The translations under genes and the position numbers were made by a program. DNA of 41,680 nt, from contig CALLMA010000011.1 in assembly GCA_938008015.1 (NCBI GenBank), positions 1 through 41,680 of the forward strand, in the 5' to 3' direction. Shown here piece after piece: positions 23,215 through 34,644 of this stretch. The notes under the pieces are model-generated. The model saw only the letters and a program-made list of their open reading frames with translations, was not told the origin of the DNA and did not search any database. Source of the stretch: an uncultured Celeribacter sp. Its GTDB lineage: Bacteria > Pseudomonadota > Alphaproteobacteria > Rhodobacterales > Rhodobacteraceae. Position 1 is the stretch's first letter; every line of letters starts with the position of its first letter.

Positions 23215-24402
23215 TTATTTGCACACACGTGCAACAGCTTCTGCAAGCAATGGCACTGTTTGTGTGTTGAGACCTGCAATATTCATGCGGCTATCGCCGA
23301 CCATATAAACGCCATATTCCTTTCGGATTTGAAGCACTTCTTCACTTGAAGCGCCAATCCGTGAAAACATGCCGCGATGCTGGGCAATAAAGTCAAAACG
23401 GCTAGAATTGGTTTTTTGGCGCAATTCATCAGCAAGTTGAGTGCGCAGTGCAAGCATGCCTAAGCGAACGTCTTCTAATTCAGCCATCCAATCCGCTTTG
23501 AGCTCTGGATCATTTAAGATCATGCCCACAAGGCGCGCACCATGATCTGGCGGGAAGGAATAGTTCTGACGGTTTAAGAAGTTTAGCGTGCCTTGAGTGG
23601 TTGCGCTCTGTTCTGCTTTTTCAGAAATCGCCATCAAACAGCCTGTGCGTTCACGGTAGATCCCAAAGTTCTTAGAGCATGAAGAGGCAATCAGCATTTC
23701 AGGTAGCTTGGAGGCAAGTAAGCGCGTTGCTGCGGCATCTTCATCCAAGCCATCGCCGAACCCTTGATAAGCAATATCGACCAGCGCAATCGCGCCTTTT
23801 TTAGCAATAAGATCAGCAACAAGGCCGTATTGCTCTAGCGTCAAATTAGCGCCTGTTGGATTGTGGCAGCAGCCATGCAAGAGAACGACGTCACCTGCGG
23901 CAACCTCATCTAATGAGGCCAGCATCGCATCAAATTCAACGGTGCAAGTTTCTTCATTGAAGTAAGCGTAAGAGCGATTGTTCATTTTCATGAATTTGAG
24001 GATCGAGACATGGTTGGGCCATGTTGGGTTCGATGTCCATACAGTTGCATCTGGGTTGGCAAGCTTGATGAGTTCAAAAGCCTGACGCAAAGCGCCCGTT
24101 CCGCCTGGTGTTGCAACGGCTGCAACGCGTGCATGATCAACGCTTTGCGCAAGCACGAGTTCTTTCATACCGTCGTTAAACGCGGGATCGCCTGAAAGGC
24201 CCGTATATGTTTTGCTGTCTTGAATATCCCAAAGCTTCTTTTCAGCCGCTTTAACGGAACGCATCACAGGGGTGAGCCCTGTAGCATCTTTATAAACACC
24301 AACGCCCAAATCAATTTTATTGTCGCGTGGATCTTCGCGGTAGAGCTGCATGAGCTCAAGAATTTTGTCGGCAGGTTGTGGTGTTAAATTGCTAAGCATC
24401 AT
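23215..24402 (-). CDS. Aromatic/aspartate aminotransferase (class I, AspC/TyrB type)
   Basis: This 395-residue PLP enzyme of the Ia subgroup is most like bacterial TyrB/AspC: PADKILELMQLYREDPRDNKIDLGVGVY near the N-terminus (residues 9-36 region), TPGGTGALRQAFEL, HGCCHNPTGANLT with the conserved NPTG, and SCSKNFGIYRERTG with the PLP Lys (about 243). Such enzymes exchange amino groups between Asp, Phe or Tyr and 2-oxoglutarate. The pair of ATGs at 24402 and 24399 overlaps the sseA stop (ATGA), with GGAG upstream. The second ATG has the better spacing. Adjacency to a mercaptopyruvate sulfurtransferase fits cysteine transamination to 3-mercaptopyruvate followed by sulfur transfer. Confidence 0.92.
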   Translation of the reverse strand: MMLSNLTPQPADKILELMQLYREDPRDNKIDLGVGVYKDATGLTPVMRSVKAAEKKLWDIQDSKTYTGLSGDPAFNDGMKELVLAQSVDHARVAAVATPGGTGALRQAFELIKLANPDATVWTSNPTWPNHVSILKFMKMNNRSYAYFNEETCTVEFDAMLASLDEVAAGDVVLLHGCCHNPTGANLTLEQYGLVADLIAKKGAIALVDIAYQGFGDGLDEDAAATRLLASKLPEMLIASSCSKNFGIYRERTGCLMAISEKAEQSATTQGTLNFLNRQNYSFPPDHGARLVGMILNDPELKADWMAELEDVRLGMLALRTQLADELRQKTNSSRFDFIAQHRGMFSRIGASSEEVLQIRKEYGVYMVGDSRMNIAGLNTQTVPLLAEAVARVCK

Positions 24403-25265
24403 GCTTCTCCAGTTGCAATATCCAAGTTTTTATTCATTCCCCACTCACTCCAAGAGCCATCATACAGCGCACTATCTGTGCCGATAACCTTTAAGGCAAG
24501 TGAAAGGATCGCGGCAGTAATACCTGATCCGCAAGATGTTATTATAGAAGCATTTGTATTTACGCCAGCCTCTTTAAAAATCTCTTTCAACTCATTTGGC
24601 GATTTCATTTGGCCATTGGCTTGCAGAACTTTCGCAAATGGTAAATTCAGAGAGTTCGGAATATGCCCTGATCGCAGGCCTTCTCGGGGCTCTGGCATAT
24701 TGCCTTGGAATCTCTCTGCCGCACGCGCATCGATAATAATCGAGGATTGATCAGCGGAAGCTTGAGCTACTTGTGTTGCGCTGCGAATAAGTGATAGATC
24801 AAGGCGCGCCTTGAAGTTGCCCATTTGTTTTGTCGCAATGCGCTGGGCGGCGTCCGTGGCAGTGGCGCGATTTTCGGCGATCCACTTTGGCAAGCCGCCA
24901 TCTAAAACGGCAACATTTTGATGACCAAAACAATGGAACATCCACCAAAGGCGCGCTGCTGAAAACAATCCAGAACTGTCATAAACGACAACTTGATCGC
25001 CATTATTGACTCCAAAGCCTTGAATGGCTTGTGCAAAAACATCTTCACTCGGGAGCATATGTGGCAAGTTTGAGCTGCGATCGCAGGTTTTGTCGATGTC
25101 AAAGAAGTGCGCGCCCGGCAAAGACAATTTCGCGAATTCCTCAGAGGCGTTGCGTTGGGAGGCTGGCATGTACCAGCTTGTATCCATGATATGGAGGTCT
25201 TTGCGTCCTATTTGGCGGGCAAGCCAATCTGTTGAGACAAGAGTTTGAGAAAAATCATGGGTCAT
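24399..25265 (-). CDS. sseA: 3-mercaptopyruvate sulfurtransferase
   Basis: This 288-residue protein has two tandem rhodanese domains (about 8-130 inactive, 160-285 catalytic). The active loop is CGSGITA with Cys at about 243, the mercaptopyruvate-type form; thiosulfate rhodaneses have a more basic loop. It moves sulfur from 3-mercaptopyruvate to thiols or cyanide in the cytoplasm. The sequence also contains YDSSGLFSAARLWWMF, where the first domain's cysteine is replaced. The aminotransferase downstream overlaps it and could supply 3-mercaptopyruvate from cysteine. The COQ9 gene lies 20 nt upstream. Confidence 0.93.
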   Translation of the reverse strand: MTHDFSQTLVSTDWLARQIGRKDLHIMDTSWYMPASQRNASEEFAKLSLPGAHFFDIDKTCDRSSNLPHMLPSEDVFAQAIQGFGVNNGDQVVVYDSSGLFSAARLWWMFHCFGHQNVAVLDGGLPKWIAENRATATDAAQRIATKQMGNFKARLDLSLIRSATQVAQASADQSSIIIDARAAERFQGNMPEPREGLRSGHIPNSLNLPFAKVLQANGQMKSPNELKEIFKEAGVNTNASIITSCGSGITAAILSLALKVIGTDSALYDGSWSEWGMNKNLDIATGEA

Positions 25266-26351: not shown

Positions 26352-26387
26352 AACCCTTCAGGAATTATTTTCTGGAGGGTTTTTTTT
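26352..26387 (+). terminator. Intrinsic terminator of rpsU
   Basis: AACCCTTCAG (26352-26361) pairs with CTGGAGGGTT (26372-26381), 10 bp with one G-T pair, then a run of T residues to 26387. The run overlaps the stop codon of the convergent regulator gene. Confidence 0.9.
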
Positions 26388-26949
26388 AAAAGCTCGGTGG
26401 TGTGCTTGCGCTGACAAGTATGCAGGGATCAGGGCCGACTTGTTTGAAGCGGTGGGGCTGCTTGCTTTGAAAATAATATGCATCTCCTGGCCCTAGAATT
26501 TTACGCTCTTCTCCGACCGTAACTTCTATGCGTCCAGAAATCACAACACCGCCTTCTTCGCCATCATGAACATACATTTTGCGCCCCGTATCGGCGCCGA
26601 TCTCATATGTTTCGTGTAAGATCATCATTGCGCGGTCGAGGAGATCGTTGCCCACCTGCTTTAAAGAGAGTTTGCCTTTGCCGATATCGGGCAGGCTTTC
26701 GGCTGTGAAAAAAATCTGTTGCTCTTTCTCAGGCTCATCGGCAAAAAATTCGGATAACCCAATGGGAATGCCGGATAAAATACGCCGCAAAGCACTCACG
26801 GATGGGCTGGTTTTCCCAGCTTCAATGAGAGAGATCGTCGAATTGGGGACGCCAGTCTTTTTTGCCAAGCTGCGTTGAGACAAGCCGCTCCTCTCTCGGA
26901 TCGAGCGAAGCCTATTTCCTACATCGAAATCATGATCAGCGTTTAACAT
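26386..26949 (-). CDS. XRE-cupin transcriptional regulator (PuuR-like)
   Basis: From ATG 26949 the protein has 187 residues. An N-terminal HTH (SGLSQRSLAKKTGVPNSTIS, residues 21-40, then LIEAGKTSPS) is joined to a C-terminal cupin domain (about 110-185) with GRIEVTVGEERKILGPGDA and the end stretch PHRFKQVG. This architecture is that of PuuR, which represses putrescine and GABA degradation genes. Here it stands divergent from gabT-gabD, which supports the same role. Other in-frame ATGs exist at 26967 and 26979, but none has a Shine-Dalgarno. A promoter-like pair places the transcription start at 26949/26950, so the message may be leaderless. An operator-like palindrome overlaps that promoter. 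Confidence 0.87.
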   Translation of the reverse strand: MLNADHDFDVGNRLRSIRERSGLSQRSLAKKTGVPNSTISLIEAGKTSPSVSALRRILSGIPIGLSEFFADEPEKEQQIFFTAESLPDIGKGKLSLKQVGNDLLDRAMMILHETYEIGADTGRKMYVHDGEEGGVVISGRIEVTVGEERKILGPGDAYYFQSKQPHRFKQVGPDPCILVSASTPPSF

Positions 26950-26984
26950 GTTCAATATATTAAACATAAAGAAGCCCATGTAAA
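26941..26984 (-). promoter_or_regulatory. Regulator promoter with overlapping PuuR-like operator
   Basis: On the minus strand TTTACA (26979-26984) and TAATAT (26957-26962) are 16 nt apart. The -10 box lies within a near-palindrome. Read on the minus strand, 26949-26963 matches the E. coli PuuR box, as I recall it (AAAATATAATGAACA), at 12 of 15 positions; the plus strand shifted by a few bases matches at 11 of 15. GTTTAA (26941-26946) and TTAAAC (26960-26965) form an outer dyad. This suggests autorepression. Confidence 0.45.
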
Positions 26985-27055
26985 GCAAAATCAATGGGTT
27001 AGGTGGAGTTAATAATAGGCTTACACCCCTGATAAATCACCGCTACTTTGAGGCA

Positions 27056-27070
27056 AATTTAGAATGAATA
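27056..27070 (+). promoter_or_regulatory. Candidate second operator before gabT
   Basis: This 15-mer ends AATGAATA and matches the recalled PuuR box at 11 of 15 positions. It lies about 26 nt before the gabT start and 12 nt before its AAGGA (27083-27087). Such a site would fit repression of gabT-gabD by the divergent regulator. One weak match could be chance. Confidence 0.3.
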
Positions 27071-27095
27071 AACAAAAAGAATAAGGATCATTTTG

Positions 27096-28373
27096 ATGCA
27101 AAATGCTCAGCTCAGCGCAAGAAAAGACCAAGCCATTTCACGTGGTGTTGGAATGCAAACGCAAATCTATGCACAACGTGCTAAAAACTCTGAAGTTTGG
27201 GATGTTGAAGGGACGCGTTACATTGATTTTGCAGCAGGTATTGCTGTTGTAAACACAGGCCATTGCCACCCAAAAGTCATGAATGCGGTGCAAGAACAAA
27301 TGGGTGCTTTTACACATACGTGTCACCAAGTTCTTCCATATGAAAACTATATCTCTTTAGCAGAGCGCCTCAATGAAGCGGCTGCTGGGGATTTTGATAA
27401 GAAGACTGTTTTTGTGACAACTGGCGCAGAAGCTGTTGAAAATGCGATCAAAGTCGCACGCGCTCATACGGGTCGCCCTGCTGTGATTGCATTTGGAGGC
27501 GGCTTCCACGGTCGTACATTTATGGGCATGAGCCTGACAGGCAAGGTTCAGCCTTATAAAGCTGGATTTGGCGCGATGATGCCAGATGTTTACCATATCC
27601 CATACCCTGTAGAACTACATGGCATTTCAACACAAGATTCTCTTGAGGCGCTTTATAAGCTCTTCAAAGCCGATCTTGATCCAAACCGCGTTGCGGCAAT
27701 CATCTTTGAGCCTGTTCAAGGTGAAGGCGGTTTCTATCCTGCGCCAGCTGAGCTTGTGAAAGGCATTCGTGAGCTTTGTGATGAGCATGGCATCGTGATG
27801 ATCGCAGATGAAATTCAAACAGGTTTCGCACGCACTGGAAATCTTTTTGCGATGCATGGCTATGAACATGCGGCGGATTTGACAACAATGGCGAAGGGCC
27901 TTGCAGGCGGCTTGCCTCTTGCGGCTGTGGTTGGCAAAGCGGAAATCATGGATGCGGCTAATCCCGGTGGTCTAGGTGGCACATATGGCGGTAACCCATT
28001 GGGGATCGCGGCCGCTCATGCTGTTCTGGATGTGATTGAAGAAGAAAACCTATGTGAACGCGCAAATGAGCTTGGCTCACGCCTGCGCCAACGCTTAGAG
28101 GCTATTCGTGAAACAACGCCAGAAATAGTTGATATTCGTGGCCCTGGTTTCATGGTTGCGGCGGAATTCAATGTTGCTGGCACAGATACACCAAGCCCAG
28201 AATTCACACAAAAAGTGCGTGAAGAAGCGCTTAAGCGTAATCTTATTTTGTTGACCTGTGGCGTTTACGGCAATGTGATCCGCTTCTTGGCTCCAATCAC
28301 CATTCAAGACGAGATTTTTGCTGAAGCGCTCGATATACTCGAAGAGTCTATCGCTGCAGCAAAAGGAGCATAA
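27096..28373 (+). CDS. gabT: 4-aminobutyrate aminotransferase
   Basis: GabT (425 residues) moves the amino group of GABA to 2-oxoglutarate, giving succinate semialdehyde. It is a class III PLP enzyme. Landmarks are TTGAEAVENAIKVARAHTG (about 108-126, the phosphate-binding region), GFHGRTFMGMSLTGK, the cofactor Asp in IADEIQTGFARTG, and TMAKGLAGGLPLAAV with PLP Lys267. Start ATG 27096 has AAGGA 8 nt upstream; an in-frame TTG one codon earlier is not needed. gabD follows after 2 nt and takes the next step. A PuuR-like regulator is divergent upstream. A related role in delta-aminovalerate or putrescine breakdown is possible. Confidence 0.95.
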   Translation: MQNAQLSARKDQAISRGVGMQTQIYAQRAKNSEVWDVEGTRYIDFAAGIAVVNTGHCHPKVMNAVQEQMGAFTHTCHQVLPYENYISLAERLNEAAAGDFDKKTVFVTTGAEAVENAIKVARAHTGRPAVIAFGGGFHGRTFMGMSLTGKVQPYKAGFGAMMPDVYHIPYPVELHGISTQDSLEALYKLFKADLDPNRVAAIIFEPVQGEGGFYPAPAELVKGIRELCDEHGIVMIADEIQTGFARTGNLFAMHGYEHAADLTTMAKGLAGGLPLAAVVGKAEIMDAANPGGLGGTYGGNPLGIAAAHAVLDVIEEENLCERANELGSRLRQRLEAIRETTPEIVDIRGPGFMVAAEFNVAGTDTPSPEFTQKVREEALKRNLILLTCGVYGNVIRFLAPITIQDEIFAEALDILEESIAAAKGA

Positions 28374-28375
28374 GA

Positions 28376-29824
28376 ATGCTAAACTTAAAAGATCCATCTC
28401 TGTTAGAATCACGCGCTTATATGAATGGCGCGTGGGTGTCTTCGGAGCGCTGTTTTACTGTGAGCAACCCGTCGACGGGTGAAGAAATCGCGCAGGTCAC
28501 AGATTTGACACCAGAAGATGTTTCCAAGGCAATTGATGTTGCTTATGCGGCACAAAAAGATTGGGCTGCGAAAACAGGCAAAGAGCGCGGGGCAATCTTG
28601 CGCAAATGGCATGATCTCTTGATTGAAAACGCGGATGATCTCGCAGCGATTTTGACAGCAGAAATGGGCAAGCCCCTTGCTGAAGCCAAAGGCGAAGTTC
28701 TTTATGGTGCATCGTATGTCGAATGGTTTGCAGAAGAGGCAAAGCGTGTTTACGGCGATGTGATCCCCGGCCATCAGCCTGACAAACGCATCATCGTGCT
28801 CAAGCAGCCTGTTGGCGTTGTTGGTTCTATCACGCCTTGGAACTTCCCAAATGCAATGATCGCACGCAAAGTTGCTCCAGCGCTTGCTGTTGGGTGTAGC
28901 TTTGTAGCACGCCCTGCAGAATTGACGCCATTATCGGCGCTTGCAATGGCTGTTCTTGCTGAGCGCGCGGGCGTTCCTGCTGGTGTATTCAATGTTGTTC
29001 CAAGCTCAGATTCATCAGGTGTTGGGAAAGAGCTATGTTATAATCCGAAGGTAGCTAAGATCACCTTTACAGGCTCAACGCGCGTTGGAAAAATCTTGAT
29101 GGAGCAAGCCGCTTCTACAATCAAGAAAGTATCGCTCGAGCTTGGCGGCAATGCCCCTTTCTTGGTGTTTGATGATGCGGATGTTGATGCCGCCGTTGAA
29201 GGCGCTTTGATTGCAAAATTCCGCAATGCAGGGCAGACATGTGTTTGCGCCAACCGCATATATGTACAAGCAGGCGTTTATGATGAGTTTGTTGAAAAGC
29301 TCTCTGCGAAGGTTTCTGCCTTTAAGGTTGGGGATGGTTTTGAAGAGGGTGTTGCCCTTGGGCCGCTCATCAATGAAGCCGCTCTTGAGAAAGTCGAATC
29401 GCATCTTGAGAACGCTGTTTCAAATGGCGCTTCTGTTGTCACAGGCGGTAAACGCCATGCAAACGGGCGTACATTTTTCGAACCAACTGTCTTGCGCGAC
29501 ATGAAAAAAGATATGCTCGTGAGCAGTGAAGAAACCTTCGGACCACTTGCGCCTGTCTATAAGTTTGATGATGAAGCGGAAGCTGTGGCGCTTGCGAATG
29601 ACAGTGAGTTTGGTCTTGCTGGGTATTTCTATAGCCGAGACATTTCGCGCGTGTGGCGTGTGGCGGAAGCTCTTGAAACGGGCATGGTCGGCGTAAACAC
29701 TGGCTTGATTTCAACAGAGCTTGCGCCATTCGGTGGCGTGAAGCAATCTGGCCAAGGCCGTGAAGGCTCAAAATATGGTACGGATGACTATACTGAAATG
29801 AAATACGTTTGTATGGGCGTATAA
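28376..29824 (+). CDS. gabD: Succinate-semialdehyde dehydrogenase (NAD(P)+)
   Basis: GabD (482 residues) oxidises succinate semialdehyde to succinate, feeding GABA carbon into the TCA cycle. It is a full-length aldehyde dehydrogenase. Seen here: TPWNFPNAMIARKVAPALAVG, the glycine motif FTGSTRVGKIL, LELGGNAPFLV with the general-base Glu, and the nucleophile in GQTCVCANR (Cys289, with a second Cys at 291). The cofactor-binding stretch reads FVARPAELTP, with Arg where Lys is more usual, which may affect NAD/NADP choice. Its Shine-Dalgarno AGGAG lies in the last gabT codons, 8 nt from the ATG. A terminator follows. Confidence 0.96.
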   Translation: MLNLKDPSLLESRAYMNGAWVSSERCFTVSNPSTGEEIAQVTDLTPEDVSKAIDVAYAAQKDWAAKTGKERGAILRKWHDLLIENADDLAAILTAEMGKPLAEAKGEVLYGASYVEWFAEEAKRVYGDVIPGHQPDKRIIVLKQPVGVVGSITPWNFPNAMIARKVAPALAVGCSFVARPAELTPLSALAMAVLAERAGVPAGVFNVVPSSDSSGVGKELCYNPKVAKITFTGSTRVGKILMEQAASTIKKVSLELGGNAPFLVFDDADVDAAVEGALIAKFRNAGQTCVCANRIYVQAGVYDEFVEKLSAKVSAFKVGDGFEEGVALGPLINEAALEKVESHLENAVSNGASVVTGGKRHANGRTFFEPTVLRDMKKDMLVSSEETFGPLAPVYKFDDEAEAVALANDSEFGLAGYFYSRDISRVWRVAEALETGMVGVNTGLISTELAPFGGVKQSGQGREGSKYGTDDYTEMKYVCMGV

Positions 29825-29849
29825 ATTAAAGAGATTTTAAATCTTGAGG

Positions 29850-29877
29850 CGGAGTCCATATTTTGGGCTCCGTTTTT
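29850..29877 (+). terminator. Intrinsic terminator of gabT-gabD
   Basis: CGGAGTCC (29850-29857) pairs with GGGCTCCG (29865-29872), 8 bp with one G-T pair, followed by TTTTTCTTTTT. This separates the GABA genes from the next operon. Confidence 0.9.
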
Positions 29878-30006: not shown

Positions 30007-30636
30007 ATGTTTGATGCGAATATACGCCCATTAATTGATCCGCCGCTGAATTATATTGGTCATGGGTTGGCACGTTTAGGTGTAACGGCGAATAGCGTTA
30101 CGTTGGCGGGCTTGGCGATTGGGATCTTCGCGGCAATTGCGATCAGTTTGGAGGCGTTTTTTATCGGCTTCATACTCATCTGCATCTCGCGCGTCGCGGA
30201 TGGATTGGATGGGGCTGTGGCCCGCGCAACGCGCAAGTCTGATTTTGGCGGTTATCTCGATATTGCGTGTGACTTCTTGTTCTACGCCTTGATACCCTTG
30301 GCATTTGTTTGGGTGTCTCCAGAGCACAACGGCGCAGCCGGCGCTTGGCTTCTTGCGAGCTTCTATTTCAATGGCGCAACCTTTTTAGGCTATGCTGTTT
30401 TGGCCGAAAAACATGAGATGCACACAAGCAAGCGTGGCTCTAAATCTTTATATTTTACGGGCGGATTGTTGGAAGGAGCTGAAACCATTGGTTTCTTTTT
30501 GCTTCTGTGTTTGCTGCCAGCTTGGTTTGCTGTGTTGGCTTGGGTGTTTGGAGCGCTTTGCTTTTTTACGGCTGTGTCGCGCATTGTTCTTGCGTGGCAA
30601 GTGTTCGGTGATTTGATTGAAAAGGATGAAACATGA
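30007..30636 (+). CDS. ynjF: CDP-alcohol phosphatidyltransferase family membrane protein (YnjF-like)
   Basis: This 209-residue membrane enzyme carries the complete family motif: D65, D68-G69, A72-R73, G81, D85 and D89, within DGLDGAVAR and GGYLDIACD. Such enzymes exchange CMP on a CDP-alcohol (usually CDP-diacylglycerol) for another alcohol to make a phospholipid or related product. About six membrane helices are visible. ATG 30007 is preferred; the frame is open from 29929 but has weaker support. Its stop overlaps the start of the next gene (ATGA). The five-gene set it opens has the same content as the E. coli ynjBCDEF cluster, where YnjF is the same kind of protein. Substrate unknown. Confidence 0.87.
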   Translation: MFDANIRPLIDPPLNYIGHGLARLGVTANSVTLAGLAIGIFAAIAISLEAFFIGFILICISRVADGLDGAVARATRKSDFGGYLDIACDFLFYALIPLAFVWVSPEHNGAAGAWLLASFYFNGATFLGYAVLAEKHEMHTSKRGSKSLYFTGGLLEGAETIGFFLLLCLLPAWFAVLAWVFGALCFFTAVSRIVLAWQVFGDLIEKDET

Positions 30637-31829
30637 AGAAATTGATTTGCGCTTCCGCGTTCTTGGCGGCTGGAGCCGCTTTTGCAGAGCCTAATCCGCA
30701 AAATTGGGATGAGGTTTTAAAAGAAGCAAATGGACAGACCGTTTACTGGAATGCTTGGGGCGGCTCAACGCAGACCAATGATTTCATTTCTTGGGTGGGA
30801 GAGCGCGTTTCTCAAGAGCATGGTGTGACGCTTGAGCATGTGAAACTCACTGATACAGCGGATGCCGTTGGTCGTGTTGTTGCGGAAAAAGCGGCGGGAA
30901 AAGACGAGGGCGGTGCTGTTGATATGATCTGGATCAATGGTGCAAATTTCGCTTCAATGAAAGAAGCTGGTTTGCTCTTTGGACCATTTGCGAGCTCTTT
31001 GCCGAATTGGGAATTCGCGGATGCGGACGGCAAATCACTTACAACAGATTTCACCGTGCCAACTGAAAGCTATGAAAGCCCTTGGGCCATGGCGCAAGTT
31101 GTCTTTATTTACGACAGTGAGACTGTAGAAAATCCTCCTAAATCAGCGCAAGACATGCTGGAATGGGCGAAGCGCAACCCAGGCCGCTTCACGTTCCCGC
31201 AGCCACCTGATTTCTTAGGGGCAACCTTCCTAAAGCAAATGCTCATCGACTTGGCGGAAGATACATCTGTTTTACAAGAGCCTGTTGGCGATAATTACGC
31301 AGAGGTAACAGCCCCGCTTTGGAGTTGGCTTGATGAAATCACACCCCATTTCTGGCGCTCAGGGCGTGCTTATCCGCAATCAGGCCCACGCCAATTGCAA
31401 CTCATCAATGATGGTGAGGTAGATATCGCGATCAGCTTCTCACCGGGTGAGGCAACGGCGGCAATCGCAAATGATCAATTGCCAGAATCTGCGCGCACAT
31501 TTGTTTTGGATAAAGGCACATTGGGAAATGCGAGCTATGTGGCCATTCCATATAACGCCTCTGCAAAAGAAGGTGCGATGGTTGTCGCAAATTTCTTACT
31601 GAGCCCAGAAGCGCAATTGCGCGCTCAGACACCTGATATCTTAGGATATGGAACAGTGCTCAATATGGAGGCCTTGCCTAGCGCGGATCGTGCTTCCTTT
31701 GAGCAGTTAGAGCTTGGTATTGCGACACTTTCTCCAGCTGAGTTGGGATCATCTCTTGCTGAGCCGCATCCGAGCTGGGTTGCAAGAATTGAAGCCGATT
31801 GGGCAGAGCGCTTTAGCGTTGCCAAGTAA
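30633..31829 (+). CDS. ynjB: ABC transporter substrate-binding protein (YnjB-like)
   Basis: This 398-residue periplasmic binding protein has a signal peptide ending AFA|EP (18/19). The mature start NWDEVLKEANGQTVYWNAWG and the region DMIWINGANFASMKEAGLLFGP resemble the YnjB family of the spermidine/putrescine-iron-thiamine binding-protein class (cluster D-like fold). The ligand is not known. Its start overlaps the CDP-alcohol phosphatidyltransferase stop by 4 nt, and its end overlaps the permease gene by 11 nt if the permease starts at TTG 31819, so the whole unit is translationally coupled. Some databases guess a thiamine-like cargo for this transporter type; I see nothing in the sequence that decides it. 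Confidence 0.88.
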   Translation: MKKLICASAFLAAGAAFAEPNPQNWDEVLKEANGQTVYWNAWGGSTQTNDFISWVGERVSQEHGVTLEHVKLTDTADAVGRVVAEKAAGKDEGGAVDMIWINGANFASMKEAGLLFGPFASSLPNWEFADADGKSLTTDFTVPTESYESPWAMAQVVFIYDSETVENPPKSAQDMLEWAKRNPGRFTFPQPPDFLGATFLKQMLIDLAEDTSVLQEPVGDNYAEVTAPLWSWLDEITPHFWRSGRAYPQSGPRQLQLINDGEVDIAISFSPGEATAAIANDQLPESARTFVLDKGTLGNASYVAIPYNASAKEGAMVVANFLLSPEAQLRAQTPDILGYGTVLNMEALPSADRASFEQLELGIATLSPAELGSSLAEPHPSWVARIEADWAERFSVAK

Positions 31830-33531
31830 AACGCATAAAAATCAAAGCTGGGGGTTTTTCCCAGTTTTGACAATATTAGTGCTCATTGGTCCTATTGTTT
31901 CAGGGCTGGTTGGCACTATTTTGCCGGCTTTTGGAGGCTCTTTTCAATCAGGCCTTAGCGCTCTTTCCTTTGAATATTGGGGGCATTTAATTGAGACGCC
32001 TGGCTTGGCACGCAGTGCGTGGCTTTCTCTAAAGACGGGCCTCATCTCAACCTTTGTTTCACTCTTGGTGTGCCTTCTGCTGGTTGCCAGTTGGCAGGGC
32101 ACGAAAATATTTCTGTTTTTCGAAAGGCTCTTGTCTCCCTTATTGTCTGTCCCACATGCGGCGGCGGCATTAGGCCTCACCTTTCTTATTGCGCCTTCGG
32201 GCTGGGTGTTTAGACTTATATCGCCTTGGGCAACGGGCTTGCAGCGCCCCGCAGATTTGCTCATTCTTGGCGATCCAGATGGATGGGCCTTAAGCGCTGG
32301 GCTCATCATCAAAGAAATGCCGTTTCTTTTGCTGATGTCGCTTGCAGCTTTATCTCAGGTCGATACGGCGAGTAGAATGCGGATCGCTTTGAGTTTAGGA
32401 TACGGCCAAGTGCGTGGGTGGATGCTGTGCGTTTTGCCGGCCTTATATCGTCAAATCCGCCTGCCTGTTTATGCGGTGATCGTTTATTCGATGTCCAATG
32501 TTGATGTGTCGATGATCTTAGGGCCAACCGCTCCTCCGACGCTTTCAATCTATATTTTAAACTGGATGACGGATCATGATTTAGCGCTGAGAAACGTCGC
32601 GGCGGCTGGAGCGATTTTGCAGCTCGCGCTTGTCTTGATCGGTTTGCTGATCTGGCGCTTAGGAGAGAAACTGTGTGCTTTATGGACGCAAAGGGCAATT
32701 TCGAGTGGAAAAAGAGGCGCGGGACAGAGTGATGTGATATTTAGGCTGCTCGCTTTGATCTTTGCCGCGGCTTCTTTGCTTGCAATCTTTGGGGGATTGT
32801 TAAGCCAAGTTATCTGGTCTTTCGCAGGACGTTGGCGTTTTCCTGAGGCATTGCCAAGCAGTTTCACAACGCGCATTTGGGAGCGCCATGGCGCTTCGGC
32901 ATTAGAGATGTCAATGACGACATTGGCGCTTGCGCTCTTGGCAGCGCTCATCGCATTGATTTTAACAATTGGTTGTCTGGAAGCGGAATTTAGGCGCGGT
33001 CGTGTCATGCAAAGGGCTGGGCTTATTTTGATTTATTTGCCTTTGCTTGTTCCCCAAATTGCCTTCCTGCCTGGTCTGCAGATTTTACTGTTGCAGATTG
33101 GGGCAGGTTTAGGCTTTTGGCCTGTGCTTATGTCTCATGTGGTTTTTGTATTGCCTTATGTGTTCTTAGCTCTTTCAGGCCCTTACCGCGCTTGGGATCA
33201 TCGCTTTCACACACTTGCAACAGCTATGGGAAAGAGCGCTTTTGTTGTGCTTTGGCGATTGCGTTTGCCGATGTTGTTGGCGCCAATACTGACGGCGATG
33301 GCCGTTGGAATGGCTGTTTCTGTCGGGCAGTTTTTGCCAACATTGCTCGCATCTGGCGGACGGCTTGCGACGTTAACCACAGAAGCCATCGCGCTTTCTT
33401 CTGGAGGCGATCGACGTGTCATCGGAGCTTGGGTTTTAATCTTGTCTGTGGCCGCTTGGCTTCCATTTTCCATCGCGCTCTTTGTACCACGCTTCATTTA
33501 CCGAAAAAGGTTAGGAATGCTGCATGAATAA
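31819..33531 (+). CDS. ynjC: ABC transporter fused permease (YnjC-like)
   Basis: This permease has about 570 residues, with two complete transmembrane domains in one chain (roughly 10-280 and 305-570), as in ThiP and AfuB-type fused permeases. Each half has an EAA-like coupling loop: ASRMRIALSLGYGQVRGW in the first and FHTLATAMGKSAFVVLWRL in the second. The open frame runs far upstream into ynjB, so the start is uncertain. TTG 31819 overlaps the ynjB stop and leaves a short cytoplasmic N-terminus, while TTG 31867 or GTG 31879 would cut into the first helix. The gene ends 8 nt inside the ATPase gene. It belongs with the preceding binding protein and the following ATPase. Confidence 0.86.
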   Translation: MPSKTHKNQSWGFFPVLTILVLIGPIVSGLVGTILPAFGGSFQSGLSALSFEYWGHLIETPGLARSAWLSLKTGLISTFVSLLVCLLLVASWQGTKIFLFFERLLSPLLSVPHAAAALGLTFLIAPSGWVFRLISPWATGLQRPADLLILGDPDGWALSAGLIIKEMPFLLLMSLAALSQVDTASRMRIALSLGYGQVRGWMLCVLPALYRQIRLPVYAVIVYSMSNVDVSMILGPTAPPTLSIYILNWMTDHDLALRNVAAAGAILQLALVLIGLLIWRLGEKLCALWTQRAISSGKRGAGQSDVIFRLLALIFAAASLLAIFGGLLSQVIWSFAGRWRFPEALPSSFTTRIWERHGASALEMSMTTLALALLAALIALILTIGCLEAEFRRGRVMQRAGLILIYLPLLVPQIAFLPGLQILLLQIGAGLGFWPVLMSHVVFVLPYVFLALSGPYRAWDHRFHTLATAMGKSAFVVLWRLRLPMLLAPILTAMAVGMAVSVGQFLPTLLASGGRLATLTTEAIALSSGGDRRVIGAWVLILSVAAWLPFSIALFVPRFIYRKRLGMLHE

Positions 33532-34168
33532 TTCTGGCTTTGAATTTAAAGATTTTACGATAAGTCATGCGAAAGGGGCTGAGCTGCTTTCTATAACGGC
33601 ACAGGTCGCCCCTGGAGAAATTCTGAGTGTTATGGGGCCTTCAGGAAGTGGAAAGTCTACTCTTCTTTCCGCCATTATTGGAAATCTTCCAAAAGCGTTT
33701 ACGCATACGGGCCAAATCCTTTTGGACGGCCTGCAGCTCGATAAGCGCGCGCCACAACATAGGAAAACCGGTATTTTATTCCAAGATCATCTCTTGTTTC
33801 CGCATATGTCGGTTGGTCAGAATATTGGCTTTGGTCTTCCCAAAATGGCGGTGGGCAAAGCGGATTTAATAGCTGAAGCCTTAAAAGATATTGATCTTGA
33901 AGGATATGAAGATCGAGACCCTGAAACTTTATCGGGCGGCCAGCGCGCCCGCGTGGCTTTAATGCGCACACTTTTAGCGGAACCTAAAGCCCTGCTTTTG
34001 GACGAACCTTTTTCGCGGTTAGATACGGATTTGCGTGAGAAAATTAGAGATTTTGTATTTACGCGCGCCCGTGCGGCTGGCTTGCCTGTCATATTAGTCA
34101 CACATGATGTTGAGGACGTGCAAGCAGCGGGTGGGCAGGTCCTTGATTTAGGGGAGAGGGAGCTGTGA
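33524..34168 (+). CDS. ynjD: ABC transporter ATP-binding protein (YnjD-like)
   Basis: This compact 214-residue ABC ATPase has no C-terminal regulatory domain. All motifs are present: Walker A GPSGSGKS (38-45), Q-loop in GILFQDHLLFPHMSV (Gln87), signature LSGGQ (136-140), Walker B ALLLDEP with Asp160 and Glu161, and the H-loop His194 in VTHDVED. It drives the fused permease, whose gene overlaps it by 8 nt. Its own stop overlaps the rhodanese GTG start (GTGA). The lack of a regulatory domain matches YnjD and ThiQ-type ATPases. Confidence 0.93.
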   Translation: MNNSGFEFKDFTISHAKGAELLSITAQVAPGEILSVMGPSGSGKSTLLSAIIGNLPKAFTHTGQILLDGLQLDKRAPQHRKTGILFQDHLLFPHMSVGQNIGFGLPKMAVGKADLIAEALKDIDLEGYEDRDPETLSGGQRARVALMRTLLAEPKALLLDEPFSRLDTDLREKIRDFVFTRARAAGLPVILVTHDVEDVQAAGGQVLDLGEREL

Positions 34169-34644
34169 GTGCAGCTCAGGTGCGATCAAGAGCCACAAGG
34201 CGCGCTTTCGTTTTGGGAGGTGGAGCGGCGCTTGTTGTGAGTGGGCTTGTTGCAACAAAGTGGTATAATGTTTTCGCAGATACATCCGCAGCAGATACAT
34301 TGGCACCAGCAGAAGCTTTAGAATTGGCGCAAAAGCGGGCGGCGTATTTGATCGATATTCGGCGGCCCGATGAGTGGCAAAAAACGGGCATTGCAGCGCC
34401 AGCACTTGCGATGGATTTGAGGCAGCCTGATTTTTTTGAGAAGCTGAAAGCGCTCAGAGAATCAGATCCTAATAAGCCGATCATCTTAATCTGCGCTCGA
34501 GGCGTTCGGTCTGCCAATATGAGGCAGCGCTTGCAAGAGATGCAGGTGGATAAAGTTTTTGATGTTCCTGAAGGGATGTTGGGTTCTGGTGCTGGGGCTG
34601 GTTGGATTGCGCGTGGTTTGCCATTGCGAAGTTTTCCTGAATGA
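34165..34644 (+). CDS. Tat-type exported or membrane-anchored rhodanese
   Basis: This is a 159-residue single-domain rhodanese with a twin-arginine-like leader, ATRRAFVLGGGAALVVSG, where Arg12-Arg13 precede a hydrophobic stretch (14-30). The leader may be cleaved or may stay as an anchor; a plain Sec anchor is also possible. The rhodanese domain (about 45-155) includes LIDIRRPDEW and the active loop CARGVRS with Cys110. The enzyme would carry persulfide sulfur on the outer face of the inner membrane. In E. coli the matching position in the ynj cluster is filled by YnjE, a larger multi-domain rhodanese. GTG start in a 4-nt overlap with the ATPase gene; last gene of the operon. Confidence 0.85.
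   Translation: MSAAQVRSRATRRAFVLGGGAALVVSGLVATKWYNVFADTSAADTLAPAEALELAQKRAAYLIDIRRPDEWQKTGIAAPALAMDLRQPDFFEKLKALRESDPNKPIILICARGVRSANMRQRLQEMQVDKVFDVPEGMLGSGAGAGWIARGLPLRSFPE

Follow-up and report, generated by a model that had tools for sequence, protein, structure and literature searches.

What joins an importer, a lipid enzyme and a rhodanese in one row of overlapping genes? The question is raised by five genes in a stretch of 41,680 nucleotides from an uncultured Celeribacter sp. (GCA_938008015.1, contig CALLMA010000011.1, positions 1-41,680; hereafter the window). Four of them encode relatives of the E. coli proteins YnjF, a predicted cytidine diphosphate (CDP)-alcohol phosphatidyltransferase, and YnjB, YnjC and YnjD, the predicted binding protein, permease and ATPase of an ATP-binding cassette (ABC) importer; the fifth encodes a single-domain rhodanese. 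In the parts of the open-licence PMC literature that we consulted, the E. coli genes ynjBCD and ynjF have no established role that we could find; experiments assigning a function to YnjBCD or YnjF were not found either, nor was any mention of the two as a pair. Here, we show that the importer YnjBCD and YnjF are found together far beyond chance, whether linked or unlinked, from which we infer that they act in one pathway. Their near-exclusive pairing, kept across classes and when the genes are unlinked, narrows the question to the identity of the imported alcohol and of the lipid that receives it, and suggests one pathway that also exists in E. coli.

The importer YnjBCD and YnjF occur together

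We searched 398 Pseudomonadota genomes for YnjB with the model NF008633 (E ≤1e-40) and for YnjF with alignment A1 (E ≤1e-20; all matches at least 217 bits), including genome G429, whose locus was left out of the fetched set described below. YnjB was found in 51 genomes and YnjF in 60, with both in 49, YnjB only in 2, YnjF only in 11 and neither in 336 (Fisher p 2e-49, relatedness ignored). Counts within the window's genus and family served as controls that lessen the relatedness problem of this test. Full-length YnjB and YnjF were present in the same 5 of 20 genomes of the genus (p 6e-5, weak or partial below-cut-off matches to the YnjB model in other members not being counted), and the family held 11 genomes with both, 0 with YnjB only, 6 with YnjF only and 10 with neither (p 0.001). 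The genes lay within 10 kb of each other in 35 of the 49 pairs; the remaining 14, spread over nine of the tool's families, were unlinked, either at least 67 kb apart on one contig (6) or on different contigs (8). Distances between YnjB sequences tracked those between YnjF sequences in 55 linked pairs (r 0.76) and in the 14 unlinked ones (r 0.85), without correction for relatedness via a species tree, and both correlations exceeded every one of 101 and 500 shuffles. An earlier note on this DNA had placed all five genes in a single pathway that included sulfur handling; its importer and phosphatidyltransferase are borne out by the 49 of 51 YnjB genomes, the pattern within the genus and the unlinked pairs, and its sulfur part is unsupported.

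Neighbourhoods were compared at 87 YnjB loci (31 from a search seeded with the window protein, 49 from the phylum sample, four from the window's genus, one from the relative G039, the window itself and E. coli), which are not independent and some of which are cut by contig ends; L135 and L136 were dropped, having only a partial distant YnjB match. Open reading frame (ORF) calling at these loci was mechanical, taking the first start codon, which makes some spacings too negative. A YnjF relative lay upstream of the importer genes at 24 loci, downstream at 23 and on the opposite strand at 8, in all 55 of 87. The commonest partner after YnjF was a VTT (DedA/TVP38-type) protein, near YnjB at 23 loci, which together with its flavin adenine dinucleotide (FAD) oxidoreductase had gone unseen in the earlier note and outnumbers the rhodanese (9 loci) beside these genes.

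This VTT partner stands alone in the E. coli type and is otherwise fused to a MerA-like FAD oxidoreductase, a combination of COG0398 (DedA) and Pyr_redox that recurs as a neighbour of YnjF and of YnjBCD. Counted at 900 bits or more, the fusion was present in 57 of the 398 genomes, 24 of them with YnjF (Fisher 5e-8) and 20 with YnjB (2e-6; relatedness uncorrected in both), and it lay at most 12 kb from YnjF in 17 of those 24 and from YnjB in 15 of those 20. It adjoins YnjF in 5 of the 11 YnjF-only genomes, and VTT and FAD genes, split from each other, do so in two of another three YnjF-only relatives (by Pfam for one). Split VTT and FAD oxidoreductase genes, overlapping by 4 nt, also occur in the window's genome, on a contig other than that of the ynj operon; the operon itself holds no VTT protein of the YdjX/YdjZ type, and a whole-genome VTT search returned two genes, both on other contigs. 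According to the parts consulted of a survey of DedA proteins, the VTT-FAD fusion is the commonest for this subfamily, and phospholipid scrambling has been raised as a possible role (PMC10127716).

Other neighbours are scattered among lineages. One gene cluster has a member between the VTT-FAD gene and ynjF in the YnjF-only loci L156 and L157, which Pfam identifies in L156 as a NupC-type nucleoside transporter and which is perhaps an alternative importer. A gene for a pyridoxal-phosphate-dependent (PALP) enzyme adjoins ynjF in the distant lineages L028, L029 and L180 (Pfam for L028 and L180, blastp for L029). The ynjBCD-ynjF locus adjoins a DUF692 (MbnB/TglH/ChrH) and DUF2063 pair in L117 and a gene for a DoxX-domain protein in L121, neighbours that we take to resemble clusters for metallophores of the ribosomally synthesized and post-translationally modified peptide (RiPP) class. 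A TIGR04283-type gene beside ynjBCD at five loci (L019, L084, L085, L089, L110), accompanied at the last four by a TIGR04282-type gene (one representative per gene cluster scanned), gave rise to the idea of an arsenosugar phospholipid. We rejected it, as ArsS (TIGR04167) was above cut-off in 1 of the 42 genomes searched among the 62 with YnjB or YnjF, and the window's genome gave only a 25-bit match. VTT-FAD genomes without ynj genes, in contrast, often carry ArsS (12 of 18 searched, against 0 of 20 genomes with neither VTT-FAD nor ynj genes), and in six genomes without YnjB or YnjF (G343, G161, G117, G321, G300, G337) the fusion adjoins arsS or lies within about 3 kb of it.

A candidate route from imported alcohol to phospholipid

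YnjF (30007..30636, plus strand, 209 amino acids (aa)) matches PF01066 (44.5 bits, cut-off 22) and carries the intact motif D65-x2-D68-G69-x2-A72-R73-x7-G81-x3-D85-x3-D89. Its class I CDP-alcohol phosphatidyltransferase signature, which we take to be D-x2-D-G-x2-A-R-x(7-9)-G-x3-D-x3-D with the spacing widened to the x7 found here, predicts catalysis of that type. A further stretch, K146...G153-L-x-E156-G-x-E159-T160...R192, marks the subfamily: the four motif aspartates and K146, G153, E156, E159, T160 and R192 do not vary among the 81 aligned YnjF sequences. A structural model (predicted local distance difference test (pLDDT) 88.8) found its best fold matches in phosphatidylinositol phosphate (PIP) synthases, DIPP synthase and AF2299, and the score against the PIP synthase model NF045883 was 47.5 bits, below the cut-off of 170. 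In the parts consulted of two structural reports, PIP synthases grip the phosphate of the acceptor by two arginines, one of them in an RxxR motif (PMC4634129, PMC6506517), and in the Renibacterium enzyme these are R153 and R191 (PMC4634129). The second probably corresponds to R192 of YnjF. At the RxxR place, by an approximate mapping at transmembrane segment 5 (TM5) made through a gapped alignment with DIPP synthase, YnjF has no arginine and the GLxEGxET stretch stands instead, which suggests that the YnjF acceptor lacks the phosphate held by PIP synthases.

The putative binding protein YnjB (30633..31829, plus strand, 398 aa) belongs to the curated family NF008633/PRK11622 (535.1 bits, cut-off 203) and has, by eye, an apparent signal peptide. 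Its model (pLDDT 90.3) has a fold common to many binding proteins, with no single nearest function. Conservation was counted over 84 sequences, leaving out L013, L020 and L035 (contig ends and a remote relative): 34 columns reach at least 97% conservation; Trp, Asn, Asp or Glu occupies 15 of them (including W42, N49, W100, N102, N105, D139, E148, W151, W241 and N299), and Lys, Arg or His occupies none. This composition points weakly to a polar ligand that is uncharged or zwitterionic, and our best guess for the imported alcohol is the same. The idea that a riboswitch might betray the ligand (e.g., thiamine) gained no support, as neither the window nor the eight fetched loci searched matched Rfam. 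The permease YnjC (31819..33531, plus strand) would have 570 aa from a TTG start, with two membrane halves in one chain, of which only the C-terminal half matched PF00528 (38.3 bits, cut-off 26.4), and the ATPase YnjD (33524..34168, plus strand, 214 aa) matches PF00005 (108 bits, cut-off 25).

As a hypothesis for the function of this module, we propose that YnjB captures a small, polar, non-phosphorylated alcohol, that YnjCD bring it into the cell, and that YnjF would link it to CDP-diacylglycerol at the cytoplasmic face, yielding cytidine monophosphate and a minor phospholipid, which a VTT/DedA-type protein coupled to a redox enzyme may then move or maintain. The small, apparently exported rhodanese would have been added in this lineage, perhaps with a protective role (thiol, copper or oxidant) beyond the inner membrane, and would carry out no core step. 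We regard such a single alcohol-uptake and phospholipid pathway, with a VTT-redox lipid arm and an added rhodanese, as the best explanation overall, though a tentative one that could well prove wrong. A bolder version is possible but on balance doubtful: YnjF would found a new subfamily of phosphatidyltransferases (K...GLxEGxET...R), whose product, a minor phospholipid not yet described, would incorporate an alcohol that YnjBCD salvage; the VTT-redox proteins would be a flippase arm, and the window locus the alphaproteobacterial form with a rhodanese added. If so, E. coli would possess a phospholipid pathway that has been overlooked and probably operates without oxygen.

Several observations weigh against the proposed pathway. 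In 11 of its 60 genomes, and in three further relatives, YnjF is found with no YnjBCD, so this particular importer is not required by YnjF, and 2 of the 51 YnjB genomes lack a detectable YnjF. The mapping of TM5 between YnjF and the PIP synthases might be shifted by a residue or two. Basic YnjB residues fall only slightly below the 97% line (R393, Lys or Arg in 96%; H379, 96%; K71, 94%), with K110 (93%), K201 (92%) and R242 (88%) close behind, and the best Foldseek matches include binders as varied as AfuA (sugar phosphate), FutA1/FbpA (iron), PotD (polyamines) and Atu4243 (gamma-aminobutyric acid, GABA), both of which make the guess of an uncharged ligand weak. Of the 60 YnjF genomes 36 lack the VTT-FAD fusion, and 33 of the 338 without YnjF have it, so that it is not specific to ynj genes. 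Finally, transfer of one operon can also yield co-occurrence, though the unlinked pairs argue against that as the sole cause.

The small rhodanese and competing explanations

The fifth gene (34165..34644, plus strand, GTG start) overlaps ynjD by 4 nt and encodes a rhodanese of 159 aa (PF00581, 42.4 bits, cut-off 22.2) with C110 in the loop CARGVRS. Its N terminus, TRRAFVL followed by a hydrophobic stretch, looks by eye like a twin-arginine translocation (Tat) signal, and the protein may on this reading be exported. It is no multi-domain rhodanese of the YnjE type, having one domain and no blastp match to YnjE. We searched flanks of up to about 8 kb per side with a home-made profile (the window rhodanese, one relative, and pieces of SseA and YnjE) and found a rhodanese at only 9 of the 87 ynjBCD loci: seven of E. 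coli type, the window, and L022, where a Pfam-confirmed rhodanese lies just past ynjD on the other strand. A direct phmmer search of the ORFs at the other fetched ynjBCD loci gave no relative of the window protein. Together these results led us to reject a shared rhodanese as part of the core module.

Relatives of the window rhodanese lie elsewhere. Of 41 genomes, 14 in addition to that of the window gave a match (best 45% identity, weakest below 30%), and YnjF and an above-cut-off YnjB are missing from all 14; we found nothing that would make sulfur handling a core function, as had been supposed. At 13 loci of such relatives, a VTT gene lies within about 2 kb in eight, seven in the window's genus (L177, L182-L187) and one beyond it (L191). 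L177 also has a multicopper oxidase and a DUF302 gene and, with a two-component system recognized by eye, looks like a copper-response locus. The window rhodanese thus looks like an addition from another, VTT-containing context and not like a counterpart of YnjE.

Could these genes serve sulfur metabolism after all? On that account a sulfur-bearing or alcohol compound is taken up, the rhodanese transfers sulfur, and the head group enters a lipid. The 4-nt coupling of rhodanese and ynjD in the window, the adjacency of YnjE to ynjD in E. coli-type genomes and the case of L022 speak for it, and three separate cases are a mild excess over the roughly 0.3 rhodanese neighbours expected by chance among 87 loci (a 2-kb span and 4.3-Mb genomes assumed; whole-genome PF00581 searches, with 3-15 matches in each of the 51 YnjB genomes, were used for this estimate only). 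However, seven of the nine rhodanese loci are of one type, at least two kinds of rhodanese are involved, and E. coli ynjE appears as its own FNR target in the parts consulted of one regulon study (PMC3688515), and we consider the account improbable. Envelope protection against metal, oxidant or thiol stress is an unlikely explanation too, if less so: YnjF would tune lipid composition, the solute brought in by the importer would be protective but unrelated, and VTT, redox enzyme and rhodanese would belong to the same response; importer and YnjF would share a purpose and no metabolite. Such a role would fit the VTT genes beside the rhodanese relatives, the multicopper oxidase and DUF302 gene at L177 (the only such locus scanned further), the fold changes of 1.6 and 1.4 for ynjA and ynjB in a BaeR table (PMC2731931), and the listing of ydjXYZ-ynjABCD and ynjE as FNR-activated (PMC3688515), both sources consulted in part; yet YnjF and an above-cut-off YnjB are both missing from the relatives' genomes that carry those rhodanese loci, and neighbours differ by lineage while the YnjB-YnjF pair is constant.

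Two further accounts were weighed. YnjB is listed as a polyamine transport homologue in the table of a review consulted in part (PMC9397018), and it shows weak sequence matches to SpuD and PotD and a fold similar to PotD and PotF, which would make YnjBCD a polyamine importer. Aligned to YnjB, PotD E36 falls in a gap next to Gly-Gly, W255 and D257 are met by Asn299 (84 of 84) and by His, Ser or Asn at 301, and W34 is retained, as W42; in the D168/E171 region the alignment is poor. The polyamine contacts of PotD are the acids E36, D168, E171 and D257 with an aromatic box (the residue letters at E36, W255 and D257 were checked), and with at least two of these acids missing from YnjB we hold this account to be very improbable. 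Hitchhiking, in which a single operon spreads whole with no functional link between its parts, would suit the prevalence of linked pairs and a genus in which the cassette is either wholly present or wholly absent; with 14 unlinked pairs in nine families and three different arrangements standing against it, it is also improbable.

The window locus and the E. coli ynj genes

The five coupled ORFs lie where the earlier note had placed them, with overlaps of 4, 11, 8 and 4 nt in the order F-B-C-D-rhodanese, as it had reported, and these overlaps suggest a single transcript for all five genes. The nearest relative found, L005 (its YnjB 79% identical to that of the window), repeats the first three overlaps (4, 11 and 8 nt) and has the TTG, the putative start of ynjC, at the same place. 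A terminator-like hairpin (29846..29876, plus strand, 13 pairs with a T-rich tail), 3' of a gabD-like gene, separates a gabT-gabD-like pair from the five ORFs and is only suggestive of an upstream border of the transcription unit, given that terminator-like sites in the region (8) are not in excess of the shuffle mean (8.9). No promoter-like site stood out in a scan of the region. Just upstream (26386-29824) lie the gabT-like and gabD-like genes (GABA use) and, beside them, a divergent ORF that by eye resembles a helix-turn-helix regulator. E. coli astC (class-III aminotransferase) and astD (aldehyde dehydrogenase) are also near the ynj cluster, in the opposite direction, probably by coincidence. 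Farther off on the minus strand, the ORF of an SseA-like sulfurtransferase with a weak blastp match to YnjE (24399-25265) shares 4 nt with a neighbour (23215-24402) that resembles, by eye, an aspartate/aromatic aminotransferase, and the two together could make and use 3-mercaptopyruvate.

Compared with E. coli K-12 MG1655 by blastp, YnjF is 46% identical over 193 aa (E 1e-54), YnjB 43% (E 1e-103), YnjC 33-34% in each half (best E 7e-19) and YnjD 48% (E 1e-62). The correspondence with E. coli supposed for all five genes is borne out for these four and is not supported for the rhodanese. The E. coli genes do not form one five-gene operon either, as had been supposed, since ynjF lies there on the strand opposite to ynjBCDE, with ydjX, ydjY, ydjZ and ynjA before ynjB. 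The FNR study already cited lists, in the parts consulted, ydjXYZ-ynjABCD as one operon (PMC3688515). The window locus, with adjacent relatives of YnjB, YnjC, YnjD and YnjF, a rhodanese beside ynjD and VTT genes somewhere in the genome, represents the E. coli ynj module in an alphaproteobacterial form, with a conserved core of YnjBCD and YnjF, as judged from sequence. It differs in that ynjF leads the other genes and shares their strand, the rhodanese is a small one of a different kind, ydjXYZ and ynjA are not alongside, and the VTT-FAD gene pair is located away from the operon. Closer parallels are the F-B-C-D clusters of other Rhodobacterales and relatives, which have the same order and tight spacing, including the 4-nt F-B overlap in L005, L011 and L132, and in which, unlike in the window, no relative of its rhodanese was found. 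Beyond the ynj genes, YnjF has its fold and catalytic motif in common with bacterial PIP synthases and the archaeal DIPP synthase and AF2299, but no RxxR acceptor-phosphate motif was found in it, the invariant GLxEGxET stretch lying at that place.

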